A stretch of DNA of 64,000 bases from Deltaproteobacteria bacterium (GTDB taxonomy: Bacteria > Desulfobacterota > Syntrophia > Syntrophales > JAFGHS01): the NCBI GenBank assembly GCA_016928025.1, contig JAFGLN010000014.1, positions 1 to 64,000 of the forward strand, written 5' to 3'. This document shows, in pieces, positions 2,175 to 34,292 of the stretch. Made by a program: the position numbers and the translations under genes. The notes beneath the pieces are model-generated. The model saw nothing but the letters and a program-made list of their open reading frames with translations, had not been told where the DNA came from and did no database searches. Position 1 is the first letter of the stretch; each line of letters opens with the position of its first letter.

Positions 2175-3812
2175 TTATTTACCGGCCATCATGGCGGCAA
2201 CATCTTCGCTGACCGCACCGATGGGCTTGATATCGAATTTTTCCACCAGCACCTTCGCCACGGCAGGCGACAAAAAGGCCGGCAGCGTCGGGCCCAGGCG
2301 GATTCCCTTGACGTTGAGATACAGCAGGGCCAGCAGTACGGCAACGGCCTTCTGCTCGTACCAGGCGATATCGAAAGAAATCGGCAGGTCATTAATATCT
2401 TTCAGGCCGAAGATGTCCTTGAGTTTCAGCGCGATTACCGCCAGCGAATAGGAGTCATTGCACTGTCCCGCATCCAGGACCCGGGGAATACCGCCGATAT
2501 CACCGAGAGGCAACTTGTTGTATCGGTACTTGGCGCATCCGGCGGTCAGAATCACCGTATCCTCGGGCAGGGTTTCGGCTACTTCGGTAAAGTAACTGCG
2601 AGCCTTCTGCCGCCCGTCACAGCCGGCCATGACGACAAAGCGTTTGATCGATCCGGATTTCACGGCGTCCACGACCTTGTCGGCAAGCGCCAGCACCTGA
2701 TGATGGGCAAATCCGCCGACGATCTTTCCGGATTCAATTTCCTTGGGCGGAGGACATGTTTTCGCCAGAGCGATGACATCCGAGAAATCCTTCTCGCCGC
2801 CTGAAGGTCTGTCAACGATATGTTTGGCTCCGGGATAGTTGACAATGCTGGTCGTAAACAGCCTGCTCAAATAGGTGTTGTCTTTTTTTATCGGAATCAG
2901 ACAATTGGTGGTCAGGATAATCGGACCGTTGAAGGTCTCAAAGTCCTCGTTCTGATGCCACCAGGAGGAGCCGTAATTGCCCACGAAATGGCCGTATTTC
3001 TTAAACGCCGGATAATAGTGGGCCGGAAGCATCTCGCCGTGCGTATATACATCCACGCCGGCGCCTTCCGTCTGTTTCAACAGTTCCTCCATATCCCTGA
3101 GATCATGGCCGGAAATCAGGATACCGGGGTTGTTGCGCACGCCGAGATTGACTTCCGTAATTTCCGGATTCCCGTAGGTTTTGGTATTGGCTTCATCCAG
3201 AAGCGCCATGGTGGTCACAGCTGACTCACCGGCTTTCATGACCATGGCGATCATTGCCTCCGCGGAAAGATCTTTTGTGGTGGATGCCAGCGCTTCCATG
3301 ATGAAGGCGTAGACATCATCTTTTTCATAGCCCAAAACGGCGGCATGTTCCGCGTAGGCAGCAATGCCCTTGAGGCCAAAAATGAGCAGGGATCGCAGGG
3401 ACGTTACGTCCTCATTTGAGGCGGCATTGATGCGCACTTCATCCGACATGGCCTTGGCCATAATCTCTTCTCTATTCTTCGGGGCCCATGTGACGCAGTC
3501 CGGCTGTGCGCCCGACAGGGAGGAAGCCGCCTTTGCTTTGACCTCGTCGCGGATTTTCAGTCCTTCTTCAATCTTATCTATAATGCGACCGTCGTCCCAG
3601 GCTACATTGGTAATGGTGGTGAAAAGCGCCTCACAAACGTAACGCCCTGCCTTTTGATCCACCGCATCTAATTTTTCAGCTGCGATCGCAATCCCCTTGC
3701 ACACATAAATGAGAAGATCCTGAAGGGCCGCTGTTTCCTCGGGCTTGCCGCAAACGCCTTTTACCGTACATCCCTGATTATTAACCGTTTCCTGACACTG
3801 ATAACAAAACAT
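2175..3812 (-). CDS. hcp: Hydroxylamine reductase / hybrid cluster protein
   Basis: [41 protein letters not shown]-terminal cysteine motif, and full-length Hcp features ([53 protein letters not shown]). Confidence 0.97.
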
Positions 3813-16589: not shown

Positions 16590-16928
16590 TATTTTTAACC
16601 CTCCATCTTTTGATTACTTTTAACACGTTACTGCAGGGGCGAAGAAGCTGACAGGTCGATGAGAGTGTATGTTTTGACAACGCAATATAGGAATGTTGCC
16701 GTATTATGTCAATTTTTTTCTTTTACTGGGTATTGGCCGGTTATGGAAACGCTTGTCATTGGAATTCGGAAAGGCCATATCGAAAGTCCAGCGACGGTCC
16801 TGCCGCAACGCATCAGAGATGACGAAAAACATTGAAAAGATCATATCACGATCACCCCCCCCAAACATCTCTTTTCAATTTGACCGTTCATATCCTGAAA
16901 TTAGTTGACATACATCTACACCCATGAT

Positions 16929-16945
16929 ACGAATTTCAAATTCGT
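16929..16945. repeat. 17 nt perfect palindrome upstream of tonB
   Basis: ACGAATTT-c-AAATTCGT. Confidence 0.55.
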
Positions 16946-16989
16946 GTTATCCAGTACGGTACCAGCCAGCCATTGGATTAAAAATAGAT

Positions 16990-17023
16990 AACATATTAAT
17001 CTCGTTTGTATAGTTAATATGTT
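16990..17023. promoter_or_regulatory. Inverted repeat upstream of tonB, candidate NikR-type operator
   Basis: AACATATTAA (16990-16999), 14 nt spacer, TTAATATGTT (17014-17023): perfect 10 bp arms, about 70 nt upstream of the first gene of the metal locus. Confidence 0.5.
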
Positions 17024-17094: not shown

Positions 17095-17901
17095 ATGACA
17101 AAGATTAACACGGCCGGTTTATATATCCCATCTAAATACTTCTCCATCATCATTTCACTGGCGATTCATTGTATCATCTTGTCTTTATTGTTCACGGCGT
17201 CTGCCGTGCCGACGATTCCTTCCATGGATATCATCAACATCCATTTTGTCCATGATATAACTGAGCCTAAAGCCGAACCAGCTTCGGTGAAAGCGCCGCA
17301 AAAGGCAAAAGTAGCACCAATTCAAAAAATCAGCCGCAAAAAAATTACATCTAAGGCAACCAAACAAAAAAACAATATTCAGAACATAATAGAACAACAG
17401 GCACCATTGGCTGCAAAAACACAAACGATAGCTGGAGAAGAAAAAAAACCCATACCGAATCCGGATACCATTAATGTCCCGGAAATACCGTCAGCAATTC
17501 TAACTGAATATAAACAGTCGATTGCGCCGGTATGTTTTTCCACGGAACCGGCAAGCCCAGCATCTGGGTCAGGAGGTTCAATTACCGGACAGCATAACGG
17601 AAATCCGGTGATTTTTGAGACAAGAATCGGCAGTGCTGGTGCCCCCGCTTTTGTTCACAGAGAAATTCCTGCCTACCCAAGAACAGCGCAAAGGTTAGGA
17701 AAAGAGGGGAAAGTCGTTCTCAGGCTGCTCATTGATGCCGGCGGCAATTTGAAAAACATTGAAATTGTGGAGTCATCATGGCTGGGATTTACGGAGGCGG
17801 CTGTCGATGCGGTTAGGAGATCCACCTTTTCTCCGGGGTATAGAAATGGAGAATGCGTCATATCCAAGGCGATTCTCGCTGTTCATTTTAAGCTGAATTA
17901 A
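17095..17901 (+). CDS. tonB: TonB-family energy transducer
   Basis: N-terminal TM, Lys/Pro-rich linker and C-terminal domain PAYPRTAQRLGKEGKVVLRLLIDAGGNLKNIEIVESSWLGFTEAAVDAVRRSTFSPG. Confidence 0.93.
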   Translation: MTKINTAGLYIPSKYFSIIISLAIHCIILSLLFTASAVPTIPSMDIINIHFVHDITEPKAEPASVKAPQKAKVAPIQKISRKKITSKATKQKNNIQNIIEQQAPLAAKTQTIAGEEKKPIPNPDTINVPEIPSAILTEYKQSIAPVCFSTEPASPASGSGGSITGQHNGNPVIFETRIGSAGAPAFVHREIPAYPRTAQRLGKEGKVVLRLLIDAGGNLKNIEIVESSWLGFTEAAVDAVRRSTFSPGYRNGECVISKAILAVHFKLN

Positions 17902-18138
17902 AAAAAACATACTATTTGATCGGGTTCATAACATTGGATGGACAGGTAAACAAAGGAGGTGATGGAAAAACATTTTTCTAAGCGGTTCTAATACCGTATG
18001 GTCTTATAAAAGGTGAGGCAGGGAAAAACCTTCGGCGAGGATTCCCTGCCCCGAAAGGATAACGTTGCCAACAACATCATCCCTTTCGTTTCTCTTTATC
18101 AGAAAGGGGGTGAAATGTAAACCACAGGAGAAAGTTAT
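17902..18138 (+). promoter_or_regulatory. Structured leader between tonB and the receptor gene
   Basis: Hairpin GGCAGGGAA (18017-18025) / TTCCCTGCC (18042-18050) with nested CCT/AGG; second stem CGAAAGG (18052-18058) / CCTTTCG (18082-18088). A 9-codon ORF MEKHFSKRF* (17962-17991) follows AAGGAGG. Confidence 0.4.
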
Positions 18139-20325
18139 ATGTTGCGAAAGTCTTTATGCTTTATTGCTTTATTCATCTTGGCTTCAAGCGCTTTTGCCGA
18201 GGAAAAAAATGTGACCAGGTTGGAGGATATCGTGGTCACCGCTACGCGAACGGAAAAAATGATCGAAACGGCACCGGGCAGTGTCAACGTCGTCACGAAA
18301 AAGGAAACGGAGTTGAGGAATGTCAAGACCGTCGACAGTGCCTTGAATGCCCTGCCGGGTGTCTTTAACCGGCGGCAGTCGTTGATGGATACGCTCTCCG
18401 CCGTTTCTTTGCGCGGGATTCCCGAACAAAAAAGAACCTTGATCATCCAGGACGGCCTCCAGCTCAACAGCGCCTATGACGGCGGCGTGGCTTATACCGG
18501 TATTCCCCTGGAATCCATCGAAAGGATCGAAGTGGTCCAGGGCCCCTTTTCCAGCCTCTATGGCGGTTATGCCATGGGGGGGGTGGTGAACGTCATCACA
18601 CGCATGCCGGACCAGCGCGAATTCACCCTCAAAAGCGGCTACGGATCAAGCTGGAACCGGGGCGAGAGTTTCGACGATTTGCAGCGGTATTATATATCCT
18701 ACGGGGACAAGCTGACGGAAAAATTCCGTCTCCTCGTCAACTACGCCTACGAGGAGACGAACGGCTTCCCGAAGTATCTCAACGTTCAATCCTCCATGCC
18801 GACGGCGGGAATCACCGGCTGGTCCGCCACGACGACCAACCAGGGCGCCGCCCGCTATATCATCGGCGATAAAGGCAACAACACCTGGCGGGATGACAAC
18901 GTCAACCTGAAAGCCCGGTATGATTTCACCGCTACCACGAAGCTCAGCGCATCTTTTTCGACCAGCCGCTACAAATATAATTATGAGGAACCCCATACCT
19001 ATCTGCGCGACGCGTCAGGCAATCCCGTCTATACCTACGGATCGGTCAGAGAAAGTTCCTTTAACAGCGGGTTGGGCAGCAAGGAAATCGACCGCTATAA
19101 CCTGAAGTTGGAAACCGAGTTCAGCGACGTTAAAACGCAAATAAGTTTCGGACTCAACCATCAGAGAAAGTCATGGTACACGACCTCCGGTACGACAGCG
19201 GCGACAACCCTCACCGGAGGGCCGGGTAAACTTTCCAGCAGCCCCAACCAAAACTACAACCTCGATCTCCAGTTGACCATGCCTTTATTGACCCGGCATA
19301 TCCTGACGTTCGGCGGATCGTACAAGCTGGACCGGGCGAATGCAGAGGAATTCGATCTCACCAACTGGACGGATGAAACAACGACAACATCTCTGACCTA
19401 CAATGCGGGAGGGAAAAACGAAACGTATGCCTTGTTCGCCCAGGATGAGATCATGATCCGGGGAAATCTTACCGCTTATGTCGGTTTCCGCCAGGACTGG
19501 TGGAAAACATTCGACGGCTACGCCAATCAGTTCGGCACCGGCGCCTTTGCCGATACGTATGATTCCCGGAACGATTCGTCATTCAGCCCGAAAGTGTCCC
19601 TCGTGTATAAACCCTTTGCGGCGACAACGCTCAGGACATCCTGGGGTCAGGCCTTCCGGGCGCCGACGGTCTACGAACTTTACCGGAAATGGATATCGTC
19701 AACGGGCCGCGTATACAACGGCAATCCGGACCTGAAACCGGAAACCGTCACGGCCTGGGATGTCGGCGTCACCCAGGGCCTTTGGAAGGGCGCCAAGTTC
19801 AGCGTCACCTATTTTGAAAATCGGCTGAAAGATCTGATCTACAGAAAAACCGTCTCCTCGACGCAGAGCGACTACGTTAATGCGGGCAAGGCCCGCAGCA
19901 AAGGCGTGGTGCTGGATCTGGAGCAGCGGTTCGATCAATGGCTGCGGCTCTTCGCCAACTTCACGTACACGGACGCGCGGATCAGGGAAAACAGCGCCAA
20001 GACGGCAACGGTCGATAAACGGCTGACCTACCTGCCGAAGAAGCTCTTCAACGTGGGGGCGGAATTTGAGAAGGGCCGCTTAGCCGCATCCATAACCGGA
20101 CGCTATGTGGACAAACGTTACAGTAATGATGAAAACACGGACGAAGTCGACGACGTCTTCACCTCTTACGACGCCTTCTTCACGGCGGAAGCCAAGGTCT
20201 CCTGTAAGATCCTCGATAACGCCAAGATTTCCCTGGCCGTTGACAACCTGTTCGACGAATCGCATTTTGAGTACTACCAGGCGCCGGGCCGGCTATGGTT
20301 CGCCCAGGTGGAATTGAAATTTTAA
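18139..20325 (+). CDS. TonB-dependent outer-membrane receptor
   Basis: Signal peptide; TonB box region EDIVVTATRTEKMIETAPGSVNVVTK; plug (LRGIPEQKRTLIIQDGLQLNSAYDGG...IERIEVVQGPFSSLYGGYAMGGVVNVIT); C-terminal barrel ending in F (RLWFAQVELKF). Confidence 0.96.
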   Translation: MLRKSLCFIALFILASSAFAEEKNVTRLEDIVVTATRTEKMIETAPGSVNVVTKKETELRNVKTVDSALNALPGVFNRRQSLMDTLSAVSLRGIPEQKRTLIIQDGLQLNSAYDGGVAYTGIPLESIERIEVVQGPFSSLYGGYAMGGVVNVITRMPDQREFTLKSGYGSSWNRGESFDDLQRYYISYGDKLTEKFRLLVNYAYEETNGFPKYLNVQSSMPTAGITGWSATTTNQGAARYIIGDKGNNTWRDDNVNLKARYDFTATTKLSASFSTSRYKYNYEEPHTYLRDASGNPVYTYGSVRESSFNSGLGSKEIDRYNLKLETEFSDVKTQISFGLNHQRKSWYTTSGTTAATTLTGGPGKLSSSPNQNYNLDLQLTMPLLTRHILTFGGSYKLDRANAEEFDLTNWTDETTTTSLTYNAGGKNETYALFAQDEIMIRGNLTAYVGFRQDWWKTFDGYANQFGTGAFADTYDSRNDSSFSPKVSLVYKPFAATTLRTSWGQAFRAPTVYELYRKWISSTGRVYNGNPDLKPETVTAWDVGVTQGLWKGAKFSVTYFENRLKDLIYRKTVSSTQSDYVNAGKARSKGVVLDLEQRFDQWLRLFANFTYTDARIRENSAKTATVDKRLTYLPKKLFNVGAEFEKGRLAASITGRYVDKRYSNDENTDEVDDVFTSYDAFFTAEAKVSCKILDNAKISLAVDNLFDESHFEYYQAPGRLWFAQVELKF

Positions 20326-20461: not shown

Positions 20462-21499
20462 TTGATGATTGAAAGAAAAACCGCCATGCCGGCGGGCGGC
20501 AAAACCAGCCGCCGGATAATGATGATCCGGCAGATCGCTATGATATTAGGGCTTGTTTTGTTGATACTATCCGAGGCCGGTGCCGAAGTCCTGGTCTACA
20601 AAGACAAACTCGGCCGGGACGTTTCCGTCGCTGCGCCCGTGAAGCGGGCCGTCATTTTTCAGACCTATGAGCTTATCCCCGCCCTCGGCATCTGGGACCG
20701 GATTGCCGGTATCGGCCGTTACGCTTACAAAAACGATCTCATGCTGGCGTCGCGGCCGGATATCGGGAAAACCATCCCGTCTGTCGGCGGCGGAATGGAT
20801 GTGAACATGGAGGCCCTCCTGAAGCTGAAACCCGATATCGTCATCACCTGGACCGCCCGGCCGGAAAACATCCGATTCATGGAACAGCAGGGCCTTCGGG
20901 TCGTTTCCATCTATCCGGAAAGCATTGCCGAGCTGTACGGCGTCATGGAATTCTTCGGCGGGATTTTCGACAAGAAAAAAGAAATGCGTCGCACTATAGC
21001 CGGGATGGAACACATTTTCAGCGATGTGAGAAAGCGGGTGGGCAACATCCCGGCAAACCAAAAACAGAAAGTGCTCTGGCTCGGTTCCAGGCAAAACGCT
21101 GTGGCCTGCCGCACCGGTGTGACCAACGACATGATCGCCATGATCGGTGGGATCAATCCGGCGGCCGCCATCGACCAGAGAAACGCCGACGTTTCCGTCG
21201 AGACGCTCGTCAAGTGGAACCCCGATGTCATTTTCATCTGGGGGAACGCCGTTTACGGCGCCCGGGACATCCTGAACAATCCCCAGCTGCAGTGCCTCAA
21301 GGCCGTCAGAACCGGGCGGGTCTACAAAGCGCCGGCCTGGTCCACCTGGTCGCCGCGCCTGGCGCCGGTTGTTCTGTGGATGGCCATGAAGACCTATCCC
21401 GACCGTTTCGCAGACGTTCACCTTGAAACCGTTTGCGACGGTTTTTATAAAAAAACTTTCGGAATCCCCTACAGGATGGTGGCAGGCATTGAACCATAA
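20462..21499 (+). CDS. ABC transporter substrate-binding protein, BtuF/FecB-like
   Basis: Signal/TM N-terminus; DKLGRDVSVAAPVKRAVIFQTYELIPALGIWDRIAGIGRYAYKND...MEALLKLKPDIVITW...ETLVKWNPDVIFIWGNAVYGARDILNNPQLQCLKAVRTGRVYKAP. Confidence 0.92.
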   Translation: MMIERKTAMPAGGKTSRRIMMIRQIAMILGLVLLILSEAGAEVLVYKDKLGRDVSVAAPVKRAVIFQTYELIPALGIWDRIAGIGRYAYKNDLMLASRPDIGKTIPSVGGGMDVNMEALLKLKPDIVITWTARPENIRFMEQQGLRVVSIYPESIAELYGVMEFFGGIFDKKKEMRRTIAGMEHIFSDVRKRVGNIPANQKQKVLWLGSRQNAVACRTGVTNDMIAMIGGINPAAAIDQRNADVSVETLVKWNPDVIFIWGNAVYGARDILNNPQLQCLKAVRTGRVYKAPAWSTWSPRLAPVVLWMAMKTYPDRFADVHLETVCDGFYKKTFGIPYRMVAGIEP

Positions 21500-22496
21500 A
21501 CGCCTAACGTATATTTTGATTATCGCGTCCCCCTTCATTGCCGGTTTCGCATCTCTGTTTCTGGGTGCCTACGACATATCGCCGCTGGATATATTATCCC
21601 TTTGCCTGCACAGGCTGGCGCCGTTTCTGCAAAATCCGGACATGACCAAACAGGCCGTGATTATGGACATTCGCCTGCCGAGAATCATTCTGGCCGGGCT
21701 CGTCGGCATCGCCCTGTCGACGACGGGGGTAACGCTCCAGGGAATCTTTCGCAACCCCCTGGTCGATCCTTTTATCCTGGGCATTTCCGCCGGCGCCGCT
21801 TTCGGTTGCGCCGTTTCCGTGGCCTTCATCCCCGAGGCGCCCATTCAGATCACCGCCTTTGTGTTCGGCTGTGCCGCCGTTTTTCTGGCCTATTTCATCG
21901 GACGGACCCAGGGCGAAGTTTCCCGTCTGCCCCTGATCCTTTCCGGTGTGATCATCTCGGCCTTCTTTTCGGCCCTCGTCTCCATCGTCAAGTTCCTCGT
22001 CGATCCGATGAAACTTCAGAACATCGTTTTCTGGCTCATGGGCAGTTTTTCTCTCGCCAACTGGCAGGTGGTCAAAATCGTCGCCGTCACCCTGACGATC
22101 AGCCTCGTTCCCGTTTTCCTTCTCCGGTGGCGCCTGAACGTCATCAGCATGGGAGAGGATGAGGCAAAATCCATGGGCATCAACGTTCGGCGGGACCGGA
22201 TCATCTTCATTACAGCCTCGACGCTGGCCGTCAGCGTCGCCGTATCGGTCAGCGGCATCATCGGCTGGGTGGGCCTCATGGTTCCCCATCTGATCCGGAT
22301 GATCGCCGGACCGGACCATAAAAGCCTGGTCCCCTTGAGCATGGCCGGGGGTGCCGCCTTCATGATCATCGCCGACACCATTGCCCGGAATCTGACGACC
22401 TTCGATCTGCCCGTCGGGATCATCACCGCCATCACGGGAGCGCCTTTTTTCATTTATCTGTTGAAAAGAGGCGGTCAGGAAAGCTGGGGGCGATAG
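21423..22496 (+). CDS. ABC transporter permease, BtuC/FecCD family
   Basis: VIMDIRLPRIILAGLVGIALSTTGVTLQGIFRNPLVDPFILGISAGAAFG; SGIIGWVGLMVPHLIRMIAGPDHKSLVPLSMAGGAAFMIIADTIAR. The true start may be downstream of 21423 (for example TTG 21489). Confidence 0.96.
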   Translation: MKPFATVFIKKLSESPTGWWQALNHKRLTYILIIASPFIAGFASLFLGAYDISPLDILSLCLHRLAPFLQNPDMTKQAVIMDIRLPRIILAGLVGIALSTTGVTLQGIFRNPLVDPFILGISAGAAFGCAVSVAFIPEAPIQITAFVFGCAAVFLAYFIGRTQGEVSRLPLILSGVIISAFFSALVSIVKFLVDPMKLQNIVFWLMGSFSLANWQVVKIVAVTLTISLVPVFLLRWRLNVISMGEDEAKSMGINVRRDRIIFITASTLAVSVAVSVSGIIGWVGLMVPHLIRMIAGPDHKSLVPLSMAGGAAFMIIADTIARNLTTFDLPVGIITAITGAPFFIYLLKRGGQESWGR

Positions 22497-22499
22497 GGT

Positions 22500-23279
22500 A
22501 TGCTGGAAATTCGTCATCTCCATTTCAAACACCCGGGCGCGGCGCCGGAAATCCTCCGGGGCGTTTCCTTCGGCGTCAAGACGGGACAGATGACCGCCCT
22601 GCTCGGTCCCAACGGCTCCGGCAAGACAACGCTGTTCAAGTGCGTTGCCGGCTTATGGCTCCATCAGGCAGGCGACATTTCATTCGACGGGCAGGACATC
22701 TCGTCCCTGTCGCCGGAAAAACGGGCCTGGGTCCTGGCCGTTGTCCCCCAGGAGCATGAGCCTCCTTTCCCCTACTCCGTATTCGACGCCGTGCTGATGG
22801 GCCGCGCCTCCCACGTGCCTCTTTTTAATTCGCCCGGCCGGCGCGATCGTGAGGTAGTACAACAGGCCCTGGAGGCCGTCGGCATCGGTCATTTGCACCA
22901 AAGGCCCTACACGAAAATCAGCGGCGGCGAGCGGCAGCTGGTCCTGGTCGCCCGCGCCCTGGCCCAGGAGGCGCCCCTGCTGTTGCTTGACGAACCGACG
23001 TCCCATCTGGATTTCAGAAACCAGATCGTGATTTTGCGCAAGGTGCGCGATACGATGCGGAAACAGGGTCTGACGGTGCTGATGACGCTTCACGACCCCA
23101 ACCTGGCCATGCAGTTTGCCGATGAGGTCGTCATGCTTCATGAAGGCAGGGAAATTGCGGCCGGTGCCCCGGCGGAGGTGTTGACGGCGGAAAATCTGCG
23201 GCGCATGTACGGCATCGACGTCAATCTGATTAACTATAACGGCTACAAGGTCATTTATCCGAGGGTTGAGCATGATTAA
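22500..23279 (+). CDS. ABC transporter ATPase, BtuD/FecE family
   Basis: Walker A LLGPNGSGKTTLFKC; signature ISGGERQLVLVARALAQEAPLLLLDEPTSHLD. Confidence 0.96.
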   Translation: MLEIRHLHFKHPGAAPEILRGVSFGVKTGQMTALLGPNGSGKTTLFKCVAGLWLHQAGDISFDGQDISSLSPEKRAWVLAVVPQEHEPPFPYSVFDAVLMGRASHVPLFNSPGRRDREVVQQALEAVGIGHLHQRPYTKISGGERQLVLVARALAQEAPLLLLDEPTSHLDFRNQIVILRKVRDTMRKQGLTVLMTLHDPNLAMQFADEVVMLHEGREIAAGAPAEVLTAENLRRMYGIDVNLINYNGYKVIYPRVEHD

Positions 23280-24105
23280 GATTGATGCCGTCACCAAAAA
23301 ATACGGGACCATCACGGCCCTGGAGCACATCGACCTTTCCATCGGCAAAGGAGAAATCTTCGGCCTCCTGGGGCCGAACGGGGCGGGGAAAACCACCCTC
23401 ATCAAAATCCTCACGGCCCTGAGCCGCCCCGATTCGGGCACATGCGCCATTGACGGCATCGATGTGGCGGCCGAGCCGGACCGCATCAAACCGTATATCG
23501 GCGTGGCGCCCCAGGAGAACAATCTCGACCGGGAACTGACGGCCTATGAAAACCTCCTGATTTATGCCATGCTCCACCGTTGCACGGATCGGGAAACCAG
23601 GATCGCGGAAACCCTCAAACGGGTGGATCTCTGGGATCGAAAAGACTCCATCGTGGCGGGTTTTTCCGGAGGCATGCAACGGCGGCTGCTCCTGGCCAGA
23701 TCCCTGTTGACGGAACCGGCGATCCTTTTTCTCGATGAACCGTCCTTGGGTCTCGATCCCCAGATCAGACGGCAGCTGTGGGACATCATCCGAAAAACCC
23801 GGATCGACGGACGAACCGTCGTGATTACCACCCACTACATCGAGGAGGCCGAAGCCTTATGCAACCGCGTGGGTATTCTGGCCAAAGGCCGGCTCATCGC
23901 CCTCGATGCGCCGGACAACCTCAAGATGAATGTGGGCCGCTTTGTCGTTGAAAGGATCAATGAAGACGGAAAGCTGATTCAGCGTATCTGCCCGACCCGC
24001 GACGCCGCCCACGACATGGCCCGCGGCGAAAACAACGGCGTCACCGTCCGGAAGACCAATCTGGAAGATGTTTTTATTCAATTAACGGGGGAGCGACTCG
24101 AATGA
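23272..24105 (+). CDS. ABC-2 type transporter ATPase (DrrA/CcmA-like)
   Basis: GLLGPNGAGKTTLIKILTALSRPDSG; FSGGMQRRLLLARSLLTEPAILFLDEPSLGLDPQIRRQLWDII. ATG at 23272 preferred over TTG at 23266. Confidence 0.94.
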   Translation: MIKIDAVTKKYGTITALEHIDLSIGKGEIFGLLGPNGAGKTTLIKILTALSRPDSGTCAIDGIDVAAEPDRIKPYIGVAPQENNLDRELTAYENLLIYAMLHRCTDRETRIAETLKRVDLWDRKDSIVAGFSGGMQRRLLLARSLLTEPAILFLDEPSLGLDPQIRRQLWDIIRKTRIDGRTVVITTHYIEEAEALCNRVGILAKGRLIALDAPDNLKMNVGRFVVERINEDGKLIQRICPTRDAAHDMARGENNGVTVRKTNLEDVFIQLTGERLE

Positions 24106-24848
24106 CGACCTTCGGCTGGTATCCCGTCTTTCTGAAGGAAATGCTCCTGTTTCGCCGGAAACTTTTGCGGATCGGTTATCTTTTTTCCGCCATGGTGGCG
24201 CCGTTCATCTATCTGATCGCCTTCGGCTTCGGCCTGGGCCGGAACGTCAGCATCAACGGCACCGATTATCTGAGCTTTCTCATTCCGGGCCTCGTGGCCA
24301 TGAGCTCCATGAACAATTCCTATACCTGGGTCTGCAATTCCCTGAACATGAGCCGGCTTTACTTCAAGACATTCCAGATCTTTGTCCAGGCCCCCATCAA
24401 ACCGGCATCCATCATGATGGGCGAGGTCCTGGCCGGCATGGTCAAGGGCCTGTTCGCCTCGTCGCTGATCATCATGGTAGGCTTTTTGTCCGTGGATGCA
24501 TTTACCCTGAGCCCCCTGTTTGTCGCCGCCCTGCTCCTCAATTGCTTTTTATTCGCCAACCTCGGCGTCATCATCGGGATGCGGACAAAATCCCACGAAG
24601 ACACGGCCACGTACAGTAATTTTTTCATCATGCCCATGGCGTTTTTCGGCGGCACGTTTTTTCCCGTAGACAGGCTGCCCCTGATCATCAAGTCGGCCGT
24701 CTATGTGCTGCCCCTGACCCATACGAGTATCCTGATCCGAAAAACCGTCTTCGACGGGGAGGCGATGCTTTCCCTGGCCCTGTTGATTTTATGCGCTACG
24801 GCGTTTTTTATTTACGGCTCCAAGCTGATCCGTCAATACAGCGAGTGA
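24102..24848 (+). CDS. ABC-2 type transporter permease (DrrB/NodJ-like)
   Basis: ABC-2 topology; LSFLIPGLVAMSSMNNSYTWVCNSLNMSRLYFKTFQIFVQAPIKPASIMMGEVLAGMVKGL; FFIMPMAFFGGTFFPVDRLP. Confidence 0.93.
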   Translation: MTTFGWYPVFLKEMLLFRRKLLRIGYLFSAMVAPFIYLIAFGFGLGRNVSINGTDYLSFLIPGLVAMSSMNNSYTWVCNSLNMSRLYFKTFQIFVQAPIKPASIMMGEVLAGMVKGLFASSLIIMVGFLSVDAFTLSPLFVAALLLNCFLFANLGVIIGMRTKSHEDTATYSNFFIMPMAFFGGTFFPVDRLPLIIKSAVYVLPLTHTSILIRKTVFDGEAMLSLALLILCATAFFIYGSKLIRQYSE

Positions 24849-24864
24849 CCGACAGGAGAGATTT

Positions 24865-27800
24865 ATGAACGTTTTTACCATTATGTGGTCCAGCTATCTG
24901 CCCCTGCTGAAAGAAGCGGCGGACCATCTCGCAATCGAGCTGACAGCCTATTCCAACAAACAGCTCAACGGCTTTCCCGACCTGCTGGGTGATGCCGTCC
25001 GCGCCATGAAGAAGGCGGATTTGATCCTCCTGTACCGGACGAACGACGCCTTCTGGGAGGAGCTTGATCCTGATCTGAACGCCGTCAAAACGGACAAACC
25101 GGTTGTCGTCATCGGCAGCGACCCGTCCTTCTGGCCCCTGTCTTCCGTCCGGCCCGAGATCTGTGCCCGGGCATATCAATACGTCCTGTTCAACGGCCGG
25201 GAAAACATGGATAACCTGCTTCGCTATCTGGTGCACAGCCTGTTTGACGAATCCGTCGGCTTTACCGAACCGCGGGACGTCCCCTGGCAGGGCATCTTTC
25301 ATCCGGCCCTGGACAGGGTTTTCCAGGCAACGGACGATTACCTTGATGCCTACAGGAGGCATCTGTCTTTTGAACCGGAAGCCCATGTCGGGATCCTCTA
25401 TTCGCGCTCCAGTTGGGTTACGGATAACCTGGCGGTGGAAAAAAATCTGATCGCAGCCCTGGAAAAGCGCCGGATCGCCGTTGTCCCTCTGTTTCTCTAT
25501 TCCCTCAAGGACGAAAACATCGGAAACTTAAGCGGCGTGGAGCTCATCGAGCAATTCCTGGTCAGAGACGAAAGGCCCCTCATCGACGGCATCGTAAAGC
25601 TGACCTCCTTTTTTCTGGAATCGGCCCGGGGAGGTCTGAAGGAATCGGACGCCTCTTCCGGGGCACTCCTGCTCAAAAGGCTCAATATCCCCCTGTTCAG
25701 TCCGATTATTTCCTATTACCAGGACACCGAGGCGTGGCTTGGCAACCCTCAGGGACTGGGCATGCAGGCGGCCTGGAGCCTGGCCATGCCGGAGTTCGAA
25801 GGCGTCATCGAACCCATGGTCATCGGGGCAACGGGCGGCCTGACCCAACCGGAAGAGGAGTCCTATGAACCGATCCGGGAGCGGATCGAAAGGCTGGCCG
25901 ACCGGATCGCCGGTTGGACCCGTCTGCGAAAAAAGCCGCCCCAAGAAAAGAAAGTCGCCTTCATCCTGCACAACAATCCCTGCGCCTCCGTCGAGGCCAC
26001 CGTGGGCGCCGGCGCCCACCTGGACACCCTGGAAAGCGTCGCGGACATCCTGAAGCGGATGAAAAAAGAGGGGTATCAGGTCCATCCGCCGGCGGACGGC
26101 AAGGCCCTGATTGAAGAGATCATGGCCAAAAAAGCCATCTCGGAATTCCGCTGGACGACGGCGGCGGAGATTGTCGACAAGGGCGGGACCCTCGATCTGG
26201 TGGAGACACAAAGATACCAAAAGTGGTTTGACGAGCTGCCGGAGCCCACGCGCCGCCGTATGACGGACGTCTGGGGCTCACCGCCGGGGGAAGAAATAGA
26301 CGGTGTGCCTGCAGCCATGGTTCATGAGGGAAAGATCATGGTGACGGGCGTCGATTACGGAAACGCCGTGGTCTGTGTTCAGCCCAAGCGGGGTTGTGCC
26401 GGCGCCCGGTGCGACGGCCAGGTCTGTAAGATCCTCCATGACCCTGATGTGCCTCCGCCCCACCAGTACGTCGCAACGTACAAGTGGCTCAGCCGGGAAT
26501 ACGGCGCCGACGTCATCGTCCATTGCGGCACCCACGGCAACCTCGAATTCCTGCCGGGCAAGGCATCGGGCCTGTCCGCCGGCTGCTTCCCGGACATCGG
26601 TATCGACCGGATGCCCCATCTGTATATCTATAACGCCGACAACCCGCCGGAGGGGACAATCGCCAAAAGAAGGGCCAACGCCGTTCTGATCGATCACATG
26701 CAGACGGTCATGGTCAAAGGGGAGCTGTACGGCGATCTGGATGAACTGGATCGGCTCCTCGAAGAATACGAGCGCTTCGCCGACGTGGAACCGGCAAAGG
26801 CACACACCATTTCCCACCTGATCCTGGAAAAGAGCAAGGGACTTAGGCTTTTGGACGGTAAGGAAGACGCCGCCCACGATCATTTCCACGAAACGGTTCG
26901 GGAGATCCACGAGAAACTGTCGCTCCTGAAAAAAACCTACATTCCGAAAGGGATGCACATCTTCGGACGCCTGCCGGAGGGTGAAAAACTGGGCGATTTC
27001 CTCTACGCCGTCGCCCGCTATGAAAATACGCCGGATTCCCTGCGGGGCGTCATAAATACCCTCATGGACCCGAAGCCGACCCTGACGGAAGAGGAACGGG
27101 AGGAAAGAGTCGAAGACATGGCCCGGGCGGCCTGCCGGGATTATTGCCTGAACGGGACGGCCCTGGAAATAATCCTCGACGAACGGCCGGCCTTGACGGA
27201 CGAGATACGGCCCGCTGTCCGGCTGGTAGAACGGAAGCTCCGGGCAATCCTGGACAACGTCCTGGCCTCCGACGAAACGGCGGCCCTGCTGAACGGATTC
27301 AACGGGGGATTCATTGCGCCCGGTCCGTCGGGCATTATCACCCGGGGCCGGAGCGACATCCTGCCCACGGGGCGGAACTTCTATTCCCTCGATCCCCAGC
27401 GGATCCCGTCGCCGGCGGCCTGGGAAATCGGCAAGATCCTGGCGGAAAAAACCATCGACAAATACATCCGGGACAAGGGACGCCTTCCGGAAAATATCGC
27501 GTTCTACTGGCAGTGTACGGACATCATGTGGGCCGACGGAGAATGTCTGGCCCAGATGATGTATCTGTTGGGCGCCAAACCCGTCCGGCAAAACAACGGC
27601 CGGGTCGGCGGCTTCGAGATCATCCCCCTGGAGGAACTCGGCCGGCCGCGGATCGATGTGACGGTCCGGGTATCCGGCATCACCCGGGACAACTTCCCCG
27701 GCGCCATCGGGCTGCTGGATGATGTCGTTTCGGCCTGCGCCGGTCTCGACGAGCCGGACGATATGAATTACGTGCGAAAACACTGCCTGGAGAAGCTGAA

Positions 27801-28659
27801 CGGCCATCCGCATCCGACAAAAGAAGATTTTCGAAAAGCCACCTACCGGATCTTTTGCAGTATGCCCGGCACCTATCAGGCGGGCACCCAGTTGGCCGTC
27901 TATGCCTCCGCCTGGCAGACGGACCAGGACCTGGCCGATGTATTCCTGTACTGGAACGGCTATGCTTACGGCAAAGACACCTTCGGTGAGGCGGCCCACC
28001 AGGGATTGCAAAGCTCCCTGGCAACGGTGGACGTTACCTTCAACAAAACCGTGACGGACGAATGCGATCTCACCGGCTGCTGCTGCCACTTCGGCGCCCA
28101 CGGCGGCATGATCAACGCCGCCAAGGTCGTCTCCGGAAAGGCGATCCAAAATTATTACGGCGACACCCGGGAATCGGACAAGGTTGCCGTCCGCACCCTC
28201 AGCGAAGAGATTCGGCGTATCGCACGGACAAAAATATTGAATCCCCAATGGATTGACGGGATGAAGGAGCACGGCTATAAGGGGGCGGGGGAGATCAGCA
28301 AGCGCGTGGGCCGTCTGTACGGTTGGCAGGCAACGGCAAAGGCCGTGGATGAGTCGGTGTTTGACGACGTCACGCGGACTTTTATGATGAACGAAGCCAA
28401 CAGGAAATTTTTCGAAGAGAACAATCCCTGGGCGTTGGAAGAAATGGCCCGCCGGCTCGTGGAAGCGGCGGAACGGGGTTTGTGGACCCCCGCACCCGAT
28501 TGCGCCGAAGCCCTGAAAAACGTTTATGTGGAAATCGAAGGCTGGATGGAAGAAAAAATGGGCGACATCAAAGGGGATTTTCAGGGCGGCAGCATCGATA
28601 TCACGACGAAGGAAGACGTCGCCCAATGGAAGAAAAAAATGGAGGAGATACTGGGATGA
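24865..28659 (+). CDS. cobN: CobN/BchH-family metal chelatase large subunit
   Basis: 1264 aa. [97 protein letters not shown]-terminal CobN segments ([43 protein letters not shown]). Confidence 0.93.
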
Positions 28660-29672
28660 TTTTTCCGTTTACGGCCATTGTCGGTCAGGAAGATATGAAG
28701 ACGGGACTGATATTGAACGTCATCGACCCGTCCATCGGCGGTCTTTTGATAATGGGCGAAAAGGGGACGGCCAAGAGCACGGCGGTCCGGGCACTGGCCG
28801 AACTCCTGCCGGAGACGGTCGCCGTCAAAGGCTGTCCGTTCAACTGCGACCCGGACGGGATGCTGTGCAGCGGATGTGCGGAAACCCTGGCCGGCGACGG
28901 TCATCTGCACCATGACTCCAAGAAGATGCGGGTGATCGAACTGCCCCTGGGCATCACGGAAGACCGTCTGGTCGGCACCCTGGACATTGAACACGCCATC
29001 AAGAAAGGGGAGAAGCGGTTCGAGCCGGGCATTCTGGCCGATGCCAACCGGAATTTTCTGTATGTGGATGAGGTCAACCTGCTGGACGACCATATTGTCG
29101 ATCTCCTGCTCGATTCGGCGGCCATGGGCGTCAACACGGTGGAGCGCGAAGGGGTGTCTTTCACCCATCCCGCGAAATTCATTCTCGCGGGCACCATGAA
29201 CCCGGAGGAGGGCGACCTGCGTCCCCAGCTCCTCGACCGTTTCGGCCTGTGCGTCCAGGTCATGTCTCTGGCCGATAAGGCCCTGCGGATGGAGATCCTG
29301 CGGCGAAAGGCCGCCTTTGACGCCGATCCGGCCGCTTTCAGCGCCCGGTGGGATCAGGAGCAAAAAACCCTTGCCGACAGGATCATCGGGGCAAAGGACC
29401 GGCTCAACGCCATTCCGGTGACCGATGATGTCCTGGAAAAGATCGTCGGCATAACGTCGGTGCTGCACCTGGACGGACACCGGGCGGACATTGTGATCAT
29501 GAAGGCCGCCCGGGTTCTGGCCGCTTTCCGGGGCAAAGAGACCATCGATGGAGCCGATATCAAAGACGCGGCCGGACTGGCCTTAAGGCACCGGATGAAG
29601 CGTCTGCCCTTTGAGGAAATCGGCAGGGAAGACGAAAAACTGACGGCAGCTCTTGCAGGATTACAGCCATGA
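28656..29672 (+). CDS. Magnesium chelatase ATPase subunit I-like (BchI/ChlI)
   Basis: [48 protein letters not shown]; cysteine-containing insert [50 protein letters not shown] overlap with cobN, so the true start is ATG 28656, not 28482. Confidence 0.94.
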
Positions 29673-31570
29673 CCTTTCATGATTTCATCGGACACGAAGA
29701 CGCCAAACGGGCCCTGATCTTAAATGCCATCGACCCCCGATGCGGCGGCGTCCTGTTTATCGGCGAAAAAGGCTGCGGAAAGTCGACGCTGGCCAGGCTT
29801 TATCGCCGGCTGTTGCCCGAAGAGACGCCCTTTGTGAACCTCCCCTTGAATATCACACAGGATGCCCTGCTGGGGGCCGTCGATATGGAGGCCACATTAA
29901 GAGCGGGGCGCAAGGTGCTCCAGCGGAGTCTTTTAAAACGGGCGGACGGGGGCATCCTCTATATCGACGACGTCAATCTGCTGGCGCCGGAGATCATGGC
30001 CCTCGTCCGGGAAGGTCAGCATCCCCCAAAGGCGGCGGAGATCGAAGAAGATTTGGCCGCGAACGGTTGCCCGGAATTCATTCTTCTGGGCAGCATGAAT
30101 CCCGAAGAAGGCCCCTTGTCGCCCCATGTCCTCGATCGCTTCGGCATGTGCGTCCTGTGGGAGGGCCTCAAAGATGCGGAACAAAAAATGGCCGTCATGA
30201 AAAGGGCGCTGTCCGGCGCCGATGCAGCATCCGTTGCGCATCGATCGACAAAAGGCCGTCAGGCGGATCTTCCGTCACCCGACGAGAAACTGAAAACGGA
30301 AATCCGGGAATCCCGGCAAGTGCTGAACCATGTCTTTGTTCCCCCGGAGATTTATGATTATCTTGCACAGCTGTGCGTCGAAAACGACGTCGGCAGCCAT
30401 CGGGGCGATCTTTTTCTGTTCGCCGCCGCCCGTGCCTACGCCGCCTTCCGCCGGGATAAGGCCGTGACGAAGGAGCATTGCGATACGGTCTTGCCACTGG
30501 TCCTTTTACACCGGAAAAAAATATTGCAGGAGATGGAGGAACAACACCGGCAGGCTGATGCTCATCGGGAAGACCCGGAGAAGGGAAAAGAAGAACCGGA
30601 AAAGGAGCAGCCCCGGGACGCGGAATCGTCTGCGGAAAAATCCGACGCCCCTGAAGACAAAACCCCTGAAAAACCGGACGATTCGCATGAAACAAAGCGC
30701 GAATCCCGTGATGCGGAAGAAACCTTCGCCGTCGGCGAGGCCTTCAAGGTCCGGCGCCTGTTTTTCCGCAAAGACCGGATGAACCGCGATCTGTCGGGGC
30801 GAAGGACAAAGACCGGCTCCCGAACCCACCGGGGCCGCCATATCAAAAACATCCTCAGGGAAAACGGCGACATCGCCATCGATGCCACCATCCGGGCGGC
30901 CGCCCCGTTTCAGACGGTCCGCGGACGGACGGACCTGATGCTGATCCGCCGGGAGGATTTCCGGTTCAAACAGCGGGAAAGAAAGATGGGGCATTTCGTT
31001 GTCTTTGTCGTGGACGGATCGGGGTCCATGGGGGCCAAGCGGCGGATGGTGGAGACCAAAGGCGCTATTATGTCCCTCCTGATCGACTGCTATCAGAAAA
31101 GGGATTCGGTGTCCATGATCGTCTTCCGGAAGGACAAGGCCGAAGTGGTCTTGCAGCCGACGTCCAGTGTGCAGGCGGCGGCAAAACGGCTGAGCGACAT
31201 CCCCGTCGGCGGCAAGACGCCTTTGACCGCCGGCCTGGTCGAAGCCTTCAAGCTGATCAAACGCATCCGGATGAAGTCTTTCGAGATGCGATGCCTCGTG
31301 GTCCTCATTACGGACGGCCGGGCCAACCACAGTCTCTCCAGAGCACCCGTTCGCGAGGAAATCCCCAAAGCCGCCAGGCTGCTCGGCACATTACCGTTTT
31401 GCGATTTCGTCGTTGTCGACACGGAAGACAAGGGCCGTTTTATTAAAACCGATCTCGCCCGGGATGTCGCAACTTTTCTGGGAGCCGATTACTTCCTGAT
31501 CGAGACATTAAAAACGGATCATCTGACGGGAATCGTTCAAACAAAAAAAGCGGCCTTTCTTCAAAGCTAA
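29669..31570 (+). CDS. Magnesium chelatase subunit D-like (AAA + acidic linker + VWA)
   Basis: [25 protein letters not shown]-rich linker [48 protein letters not shown] overlap with the preceding gene. Confidence 0.94.
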
Positions 31571-31859: not shown

Positions 31860-32279
31860 ATGTCGGATTTAATCAGGTTCGGGGTATCGCTGGAAAAGGA
31901 TCTGCTGGAAAAGTTTGATGCCTTAATCGGCGAAAAAAGATATACCAACCGTTCCGAAGCCATCAGAGATTTGATCAGAGATGCCCTGGTCAAAAAAGAA
32001 TGGCAGGAAAACCGGGACGTAACCGGCGCCATTACCCTGGTTTACGATCATCACCGGCGGGGATTGATCAGCCGTTTGACGGACATTCAACATGACTGCC
32101 ACCACAGCATTTTGTCGACTCAGCACATCCATATCGATCATGATCATTGTTTCGAGATTATTGTGTTCAGAGGGCAGGCCATCGACATGGAAGCCCTATA
32201 CAGCCGTTTAAAATCCACCAAAGGCGTCGAGCATGCCGGTTTATCCATGACGGCGGTGATTGACAAAACGTCCACGTAG
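31860..32279 (+). CDS. nikR: Nickel-responsive regulator NikR (ribbon-helix-helix + ACT-like)
   Basis: RFGVSLEKDLLEKFDALIGEKRYTNRSEAIRDLIRDALV RHH; metal-site region QHDCHHSILSTQHIHIDHDHCFEIIVFRG retains the NikR His/His/His/Cys ligand pattern. Confidence 0.95.
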   Translation: MSDLIRFGVSLEKDLLEKFDALIGEKRYTNRSEAIRDLIRDALVKKEWQENRDVTGAITLVYDHHRRGLISRLTDIQHDCHHSILSTQHIHIDHDHCFEIIVFRGQAIDMEALYSRLKSTKGVEHAGLSMTAVIDKTST

Positions 32280-32288
32280 GAAACGGAT

Positions 32289-33494
32289 ATGAAAATTTTA
32301 TACTACGATTGTTTTGCCGGAATCAGCGGCGATATGAACCTTGCGGCCTTGATTGATTTGGGTGTCGACCAAACGTATCTCATCGGTGAACTGAAAAAGC
32401 TGTCTGTCAATCTCTATGAAATCAGAATCAGCAGGGATCAAAGAAAAGGCATTACAGGCACAAAGGTAGACGTCATCGTCGCTTCGGAAGACGGTCATGG
32501 AGACGGGCAGCATAAACATCATCACGACCATTTCCGAACACTCAAAAACATAAAACAAATCATTGGGAAAAGCACCTTATCCGAAAATGTAAAGGGCCTC
32601 AGCCTGGATATCTTCACGAGACTAGCCCAGACAGAAGCCAAAATTCACGGGTCCGCCGTTGATGACGTCCATTTCCACGAGGTCGGCGCCGTCGATTCTA
32701 TTGTCGATATCGTGGGAGCGTCGATTTGTCTCGATTATCTCAATGTCGATAAAATATTTTGTTCTCCCGTCCAGGTAGGTGGTGGATTCGTGACCTGCGC
32801 CCATGGCACGTTTCCTGTCCCCGCACCGGCAACGGCGGAGTTGCTCAAAGGCATTCCCATGAGATCAGGCCTTGTACCTTTTGAAACCACAACACCAACA
32901 GGCGCTGCAATCCTGTCTGCGACAGTTTCCGCCTTTACAGAAAACATCCGGTTTATTGCGAAGAAAATAGGGTACGGCATTGGCCACCGGGATACGGACA
33001 TTCCCAATGTCCTGCGGGTCTATCTCGGAGAAACGGACGAAGAAAAGCCTGCAGTGGATGTTGAAACGGGGGAAGCCCTGCTTCTGGAATGCAATATCGA
33101 CGACATGAACCCGGAGCTTTATGAAGATGTTATCGAGCAGCTCTTCAAAAGCGGTGCCCAGGATGTCTTTCTTACCGCCATTATCATGAAAAAATCACGG
33201 CCGGCCGTGAAAATCAGCGTCCTTTGCAACGAGGAAACCAGGCAGGCCATCGAAAACATTCTTCTGCTTCAGACATCGACTCTGGGGCTCCGAACTTTCC
33301 GGGCTTCCAAAACCATGCTGAAAAGAGCGTTCTCGAAAAAATCAACGAAATACGGCCAGATTACCTTTAAAGACGCCTATTACGGAGGCAAAAAAATTAA
33401 ATCCAAGCCGGAATACGAAGACGTAAAAAAACTGGCAAAAAAAACGGGAGTCAGTATCCAGGAAATTTATGAAAGCCTGAAGTCCGAAAATTGA
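32289..33494 (+). CDS. larC: Nickel pincer cofactor biosynthesis protein LarC
   Basis: ILYYDCFAGISGDMNLAALIDLGVD; His-rich EDGHGDGQHKHHHDHF; VHFHEVGAVDSIVDIVGA; LLLECNIDDMNPELYEDVIEQLFKSGAQDVFLTAIIMKKSRP. Confidence 0.96.
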   Translation: MKILYYDCFAGISGDMNLAALIDLGVDQTYLIGELKKLSVNLYEIRISRDQRKGITGTKVDVIVASEDGHGDGQHKHHHDHFRTLKNIKQIIGKSTLSENVKGLSLDIFTRLAQTEAKIHGSAVDDVHFHEVGAVDSIVDIVGASICLDYLNVDKIFCSPVQVGGGFVTCAHGTFPVPAPATAELLKGIPMRSGLVPFETTTPTGAAILSATVSAFTENIRFIAKKIGYGIGHRDTDIPNVLRVYLGETDEEKPAVDVETGEALLLECNIDDMNPELYEDVIEQLFKSGAQDVFLTAIIMKKSRPAVKISVLCNEETRQAIENILLLQTSTLGLRTFRASKTMLKRAFSKKSTKYGQITFKDAYYGGKKIKSKPEYEDVKKLAKKTGVSIQEIYESLKSEN

Positions 33495-33542
33495 TCATTT
33501 CATGTATTTGGCAAGTGCAGAAAAGACAGAAAGGTTGCCTGA

Positions 33543-34292
33543 ATGAACGCCGATTCATTGAAGAAAATACTGGAGGATATCCGCGACGGACAAATAGACG
33601 TGAACGCGGGAGTTGATCTGCTGAAAAATTTGCCTTACGTGGATATCGGCCATACAAAGATCGATACCCACCGGGAACTGCGGAGCGGCTATCCGGAAGT
33701 GATCTATTGTCCCGGTAAAACCATAGATCAAATAAAGTCCATATTTCAGGCCATGCTGGAACGGGATTCCAACATCCTGGCTACACGCGCGAGTGAAGAA
33801 GTTTATTCGTCAATCAAAGCGATTTGTCCGGATGCGGTTTATCATTCCCTGCCCAAAGCCATCTCCGTCAAGAAAAAAGGAATGGAACCGCAGGAAGGGT
33901 ATATTGCCTGCATCACGGCAGGAACATCAGACATCCCGGTCGCTGAAGAAGCGGCCATTACGGCGGAACTTTTTGGTAATCGTGTCGAGAGAATTTTCGA
34001 TGCCGGTGTCGCGGGCATCCACCGGCTTTTTCACAATCTCGATCTCATTAAAGGCGCCCGGGTCAACATCGTCGTTGCCGGTATGGACGGTGCCCTCCCC
34101 AGCGTCATCGGCGGACTGGTCGATAAACCTGTAATCGCCGTGCCGACCAGTATTGGATACGGCGCCAGTTTCAATGGCCTGGCGGCCCTTTTATCCATGC
34201 TGAACACGTGCGCCAACGGCGTCTGTGTCGTCAATATCGACAACGGTTACGGCGCCGGTTATGCCGCCAGCGTCATCAACCGCCTGCGGTGA
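33543..34292 (+). CDS. larB: Nickel pincer cofactor biosynthesis protein LarB (AIR carboxylase-like)
   Basis: YVDIGHTKIDTHRELRSGYPEVIYCPGKTIDQI; TAGTSDIPVAEEAAITAELFGNRVERIFDAGVAGIHRL; VVAGMDGALPSVIGGLVDKPVIAVPTSIGYGASFNGLAALLSMLNTCANGVCVVNIDNGYGAGYAA. Confidence 0.96.
   Translation: MNADSLKKILEDIRDGQIDVNAGVDLLKNLPYVDIGHTKIDTHRELRSGYPEVIYCPGKTIDQIKSIFQAMLERDSNILATRASEEVYSSIKAICPDAVYHSLPKAISVKKKGMEPQEGYIACITAGTSDIPVAEEAAITAELFGNRVERIFDAGVAGIHRLFHNLDLIKGARVNIVVAGMDGALPSVIGGLVDKPVIAVPTSIGYGASFNGLAALLSMLNTCANGVCVVNIDNGYGAGYAASVINRLR

Follow-up and report, generated by a model that had tools for sequence, protein, structure and literature searches.

A predicted NikR operator on the tonB promoter of an uptake island in a Syntrophales bacterium

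The window, as we call the whole 64-kb stretch of DNA that was analysed, holds an island in the order tonB, TonB-dependent receptor, periplasmic binding protein, FecCD permease, ATPase, ABC ATPase/ABC-2 membrane protein, CobN, ChlI, ChlD, nikR, larC, and larB (Table 1), which raises the question of whether NikR controls the island and, if so, from which site upstream of tonB. The preliminary description had proposed as operator a perfect inverted repeat, or dyad, close to the start of tonB. Here we examine this repeat and the promoter region upstream of it, in the window and in relatives of the same order.

Table 1. Features of the tonB promoter region and of the island in the window.
Feature	Position	Strand	Remarks
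−35 element TTGACA of the predicted tonB-operon promoter	16905–16910	+	6/6 match; 13 nt before NikR half-site
Predicted NikR operator ATGATAC-N13-GTGTTAT	16924–16950	+	Profile rank 1; sole composite match in genome
Probable −10 element TACGAA (inferred)	16928–16933	+	17-nt spacing; weak match; overlapped by left NikR half-site
Perfect 10-bp dyad with 14-nt spacer	16990–17023	+	Predicted tonB leader; not conserved
tonB, first gene of the island	17095–17901	+	PF03544
Two-hairpin leader RNA before the TonB-receptor gene	18013–18138	+	Conserved in relatives
TonB-dependent receptor	18139–20325	+	PF00593, PF07715
Periplasmic binding protein, FecCD permease, ATPase	20462–23279	+	
Second ABC ATPase and ABC-2 membrane protein	23266–24848	+	
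CobN-like chelatase with ChlI- and ChlD-like subunits	24865–31570	+	
nikR	31860–32279	+	NikR_C PF08753; NF003381 above cut-off
larC and larB (nickel-pincer cofactor)	32289–34292	+	

The inverted repeat upstream of tonB

The repeat itself is as it had been described: on the forward strand it reads AACATATTAA-TCTCGTTTGTATAG-TTAATATGTT (as a whole, AACATATTAATCTCGTTTGTATAGTTAATATGTT), with perfect arms of 10 bp, a spacer of 14 nt, and 71 nt between its 3′ end and the start of tonB, where about 70 had been given. The nikR gene said to lie intact downstream on the same strand is indeed there, with its nickel-binding domain intact and its DNA-contact residues present, and the argument from geometry also stands, as a dyad with a long spacer agrees with the published NikR signal, an inverted repeat of 27–28 bp (PMC545781). 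When the 235-nt intergenic stretch (34% GC) that contains the dyad was subjected to Markov shuffling, a perfect 10-bp inverted repeat appeared in 0.6% of the shuffles with spacers of 8–20 nt and in 0.1% with spacers of 13–14 nt. Nevertheless, the window holds six perfect 10-bp inverted repeats against 0.8 expected from local shuffles, so that the choice of one dyad among them is less remarkable.

The dyad is unique in the 3.68-Mb genome, where a search with up to three mismatches returns just one further match, a poor one with three mismatches, and the half-site pair occurs one other time, with a different spacer. Membership of a repeat family was thus ruled out, as was a terminator, since none was found and the U-run is missing. 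The 16-base core of the dyad (CATATTAA-N12..16-TTAATATG) had no match in any of the 154 further genomes of the order. The dyad is thus missing upstream of orthologous tonB genes, the outcome set beforehand as refuting its role as operator, and NikR-type sites are present there instead. Conservation was judged at the order level; the sole congener compared (G001) lacks the island and keeps nikR-larC-larB only.

A predicted NikR operator on the tonB promoter

A palindromic NikR profile was seeded with the published consensus GTGTTAC-N13/14-GTAACAC (PMC545781) and trained on the nikR-flanking DNA of 28 order-level relatives, with the window excluded. It converged on RTRNYAY half-sites, separated by N13 in 23 sites and by N14 in six. 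Against this profile, the core of the dyad obtains 2.7 bits (rank 122 in the 64-kb window), because both of its half-sites (ATATTAA) end in A while those of the relatives have C or T; an inner A at position 7 of the half-site is disfavored almost completely by the profile. Together with a core that no other genome of the order holds, this leaves the proposal of the dyad as NikR operator unsupported. The best match in the whole window is instead ATGATAC-N13-GTGTTAT, with 13.0 bits against 10.8 for the runner-up. It fits two 7-bp RTRNYAY half-sites with an N13 spacer, is symmetric in 11 of 13 pairs, and is located about 40 bases upstream of the dyad, on the promoter. When the consensus was required to have a T at position 4 of the half-site, this sequence escaped detection, whereas the profile picked it up. 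Its score alone has a local shuffle P of 0.016, and 16 of the 26 distinct consensus matches in the genome outscore it. As 13.0 bits is not rare genome-wide, the case for 16924–16950 is built on its position, the promoter, and the orthologous promoters, and not on score alone. Used by itself, with the −35 element omitted, the N13 consensus gave 36 matches compared to 27 for the control, a slight excess, and was rejected as too loose for genome-wide use.

The spacing between promoter and site recurs in the relatives. In 14 of the 15 nikR promoters of relatives that carry a site, a TTGACA-like box precedes the left half-site by 12–14 nt, compared to 13 nt in the window, and the nikR promoter of G026 has TATGAA where the tonB promoter has its probable −10 element TACGAA. 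The promoter at 16905–16933 was not reported by the promoter scanner. The composite pattern TTGACA-N12..14-RTRNYAY-N13-RTRNYAY has 73 matches in 60 of the 155 genomes of the order, compared to seven when the pattern is reversed as a control. A single match falls in the 3.68-Mb genome, at the tonB promoter; it is not an independent test, because the pattern was devised from that site after it had been seen. Independent support is provided by the enrichment of the pattern over its control and by the gene context across the order: 24 of 27 examined matches precede genes for TonB, TonB receptors, CbiM, or outer-membrane proteins of the PF13557 type, the last being 14 cases recognized by eye, with one protein tested against Pfam. 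These PF13557-type outer-membrane proteins, encoded behind the NikR-promoter signature at 14 loci and thus in many of the relatives, are candidate nickel channels.

The island was found in four relatives within the order, G052 (Smithella sp. M82), G010, G026, and G041, with a linked nikR in three cases. In these genomes and in G073, G069, G067, and G004, NikR-type sites precede tonB, the receptor gene, or nikR. The tonB or receptor gene of G052, G069, G073, and G067 has two tandem sites, 39 bp apart, the first of which begins 5 nt after TTGACA (TTGACT in G073), while G010, G026, G041, and G004 have one or two sites. The site, its spacing, its profile score, and its conservation in relatives are all observed by computation. 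In the profile scan, no site above 8 bits was present at nikR, larB, or the receptor gene of the window, and none was found upstream of nikR in G001. The promoter of the nikM/CbiM transporter was unusable as an internal reference because the transporter was not found in the genome of the window or in G001. The contact strand of NikR, RFG-S, in which we take R6, G8, and S10 to be the DNA-contact residues by analogy with E. coli NikR, is identical in all eight NikR proteins compared, which makes a changed specificity unlikely.

NikR control of the island via a site on the promoter is therefore well supported, as NikR-type sites precede tonB, the receptor gene, or the adjacent nikR in orthologous islands. 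We consider it highly probable that the tonB operon has a sigma-70-type promoter at 16905–16933 and is repressed by nickel-bound NikR via 16924–16950, the dyad not being the operator. Thus, the earlier proposal that NikR acts from the region upstream of tonB is very probably right, but through a site that had been missed and not through the dyad. We infer the start of transcription, the binding of NikR, its dependence on nickel, and repression as follows. The operon would be transcribed from the sigma-70-type promoter, and NikR, whose gene lies at the end of the island, would bind the 27-bp site in its nickel-bound form. With sufficient nickel, NikR would occupy the −10 box and the start region, excluding RNA polymerase and turning the uptake island off; repression by occlusion is proposed because 16924–16950 covers both elements. 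The dyad would then lie approximately 50–83 nt into the tonB message, in its predicted leader. A plausible but wrong operator is in this way replaced by a predicted one whose every base is open to testing. Furthermore, TTGACA-N13 followed by a NikR site would constitute a compact promoter signature marking nickel-regulated genes across a bacterial order, and the TonB receptor and the CobN/ChlID chelatase set would be tied to nickel.

The dyad most likely is either a modest to weak hairpin of the leader RNA or a chance repeat without function. It is very improbable that NikR binds it, be it as primary operator or as an auxiliary second site of relaxed sequence. Its core, ATATTAA-N14-TTAATAT, does combine the 28-bp NikR geometry and an N14 spacer with perfectly symmetric arms, and NikR sites come in pairs at promoters of several relatives (with a distance of about 39 bp in G052, G067, G069, and G073); yet, besides its low score and its absence from the rest of the order, an inner A at position 7 is essentially missing from the sites of the relatives, a second site here would sit at +69 and not at +39 as in those genomes, and the unchanged contact strand suggests that specificity should equal theirs. 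Another regulator could use the dyad as its operator, possibly at a second promoter with a TATAGT box at the end of the spacer. Perfect symmetry and a weak promoter-like match (TAGATA-N18-TATAGT, 16985–17014) are in line with this idea, but we regard it as unlikely, given that the promoter scan of the region stays near the shuffle mean, that the genome has a single further copy of the half-site pair, differently spaced, and that no relative has the core.

A hairpin in the 5′ leader of the tonB message, affecting stability or translation independently of NikR, is a more tenable, if tentative, reading. Positioned 3′ of the predicted promoter, the dyad can fold into an RNA hairpin of 11 bp (−7.9 kcal/mol, z −2.0), and G073 and G067 have strong hairpins at a similar position of the leader. 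However, the stem is AU-rich, its sequence is not conserved, and the predicted tonB leader as a whole is not more stable than shuffled sequences (z −0.6). As the strong hairpins of these two relatives are unrelated in sequence and G069 has none, the leader-hairpin reading is possible but unproven. Chance in AT-rich intergenic DNA is an equally possible source of the repeat and a serious contender: the dyad is not conserved and the six 10-bp repeats of the window show that such repeats are common enough, although the local probability of a perfect one is the 0.6% given above. Strong leader hairpins 3′ of NikR sites were located at 3390–3521 of L136 (upstream of tonB in G073) and at 3330–3470 of L138 (upstream of the receptor gene in G067).

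The receptor leader RNA and the chelatase genes

Besides the predicted operator, the tonB operon has a conserved leader RNA of no assigned class, located between tonB and the receptor gene. The second of its two hairpins pairs with, and so sequesters, the Shine-Dalgarno stretch AGGAGGUG, which in a close set of sequences (alignment A3) precedes a conserved AUGUAA, a start codon directly joined to a stop codon. A covariance model built from six sequences detects the RNA in additional families, in most cases immediately 5′ of a TonB-receptor gene, and the RNA is also present at 12 other loci. In 15 aligned copies, both sides have changed in 11 of 19 pairs, and 93% of the cells pair compared to 45–64% in slid controls, a value that none of 500 shuffles reaches, although the alignment was fitted to the model and these pair counts are therefore flattered. 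None of the Rfam 15 families reached its gathering threshold over 12000–40000, which includes the dyad region and the island, and a search of five loci at E ≤ 1 returned nothing credible, the leader RNA having no match. The element is possibly a new riboswitch-like RNA. Tentatively, the island may be controlled at two levels, by NikR acting on the tonB promoter and by a leader RNA that hides the Shine-Dalgarno of the receptor gene and might belong to a metal- or metallophore-sensing riboswitch-like class in TonB-receptor genes of the phylum.

The CobN/ChlI/ChlD-like set could move nickel into or out of an imported tetrapyrrole-like chelate, a role comparable to that of the heme de-chelatase HmuS (PMC12583661). 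CobN relatives also occur in Thermodesulfovibrionales, in Geobacter-type and methanogen MAGs, and in Clostridium ragsdalei contigs. At least six contigs of the G000 assembly share the same sequence of about 47 bp within 60 bases of their start, probably a multicopy mobile element that breaks the assembly.

Comparison with known NikR systems

The nik operator of E. coli is GTATGA-N16-TCATAC; it has the 27–28 bp dyad geometry in common with the sites described here, but its half-site sequence is matched by neither of them. The deltaproteobacterial NikR signal is GTGTTAC-N13/14-GTAACAC, a 27–28 bp inverted repeat, published also with reversed half-sites (PMC545781; Rodionov, 2004). The predicted operator resembles this signal in its two 7-bp half-sites, its N13 spacer, and its position upstream of nickel-linked transport genes, and differs from it at a few positions of its half-sites ATGATAC and GTGTTAT, whereas the dyad does not match it. 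The controlled genes also differ, being nikMQO in the deltaproteobacterial system and a TonB/TonB-receptor/FecCD/CobN-ChlID island here. In Helicobacter, according to work cited in PMC11247825, NikR controls outer-membrane, TonB-powered nickel uptake through the receptors FecA3 and FrpB4. NikR control of TonB-powered uptake would thus be common to both systems, while the setting of the receptor and the operator sequence differ and the island of the window unites tonB itself with a CobN-type chelatase set in one operon.
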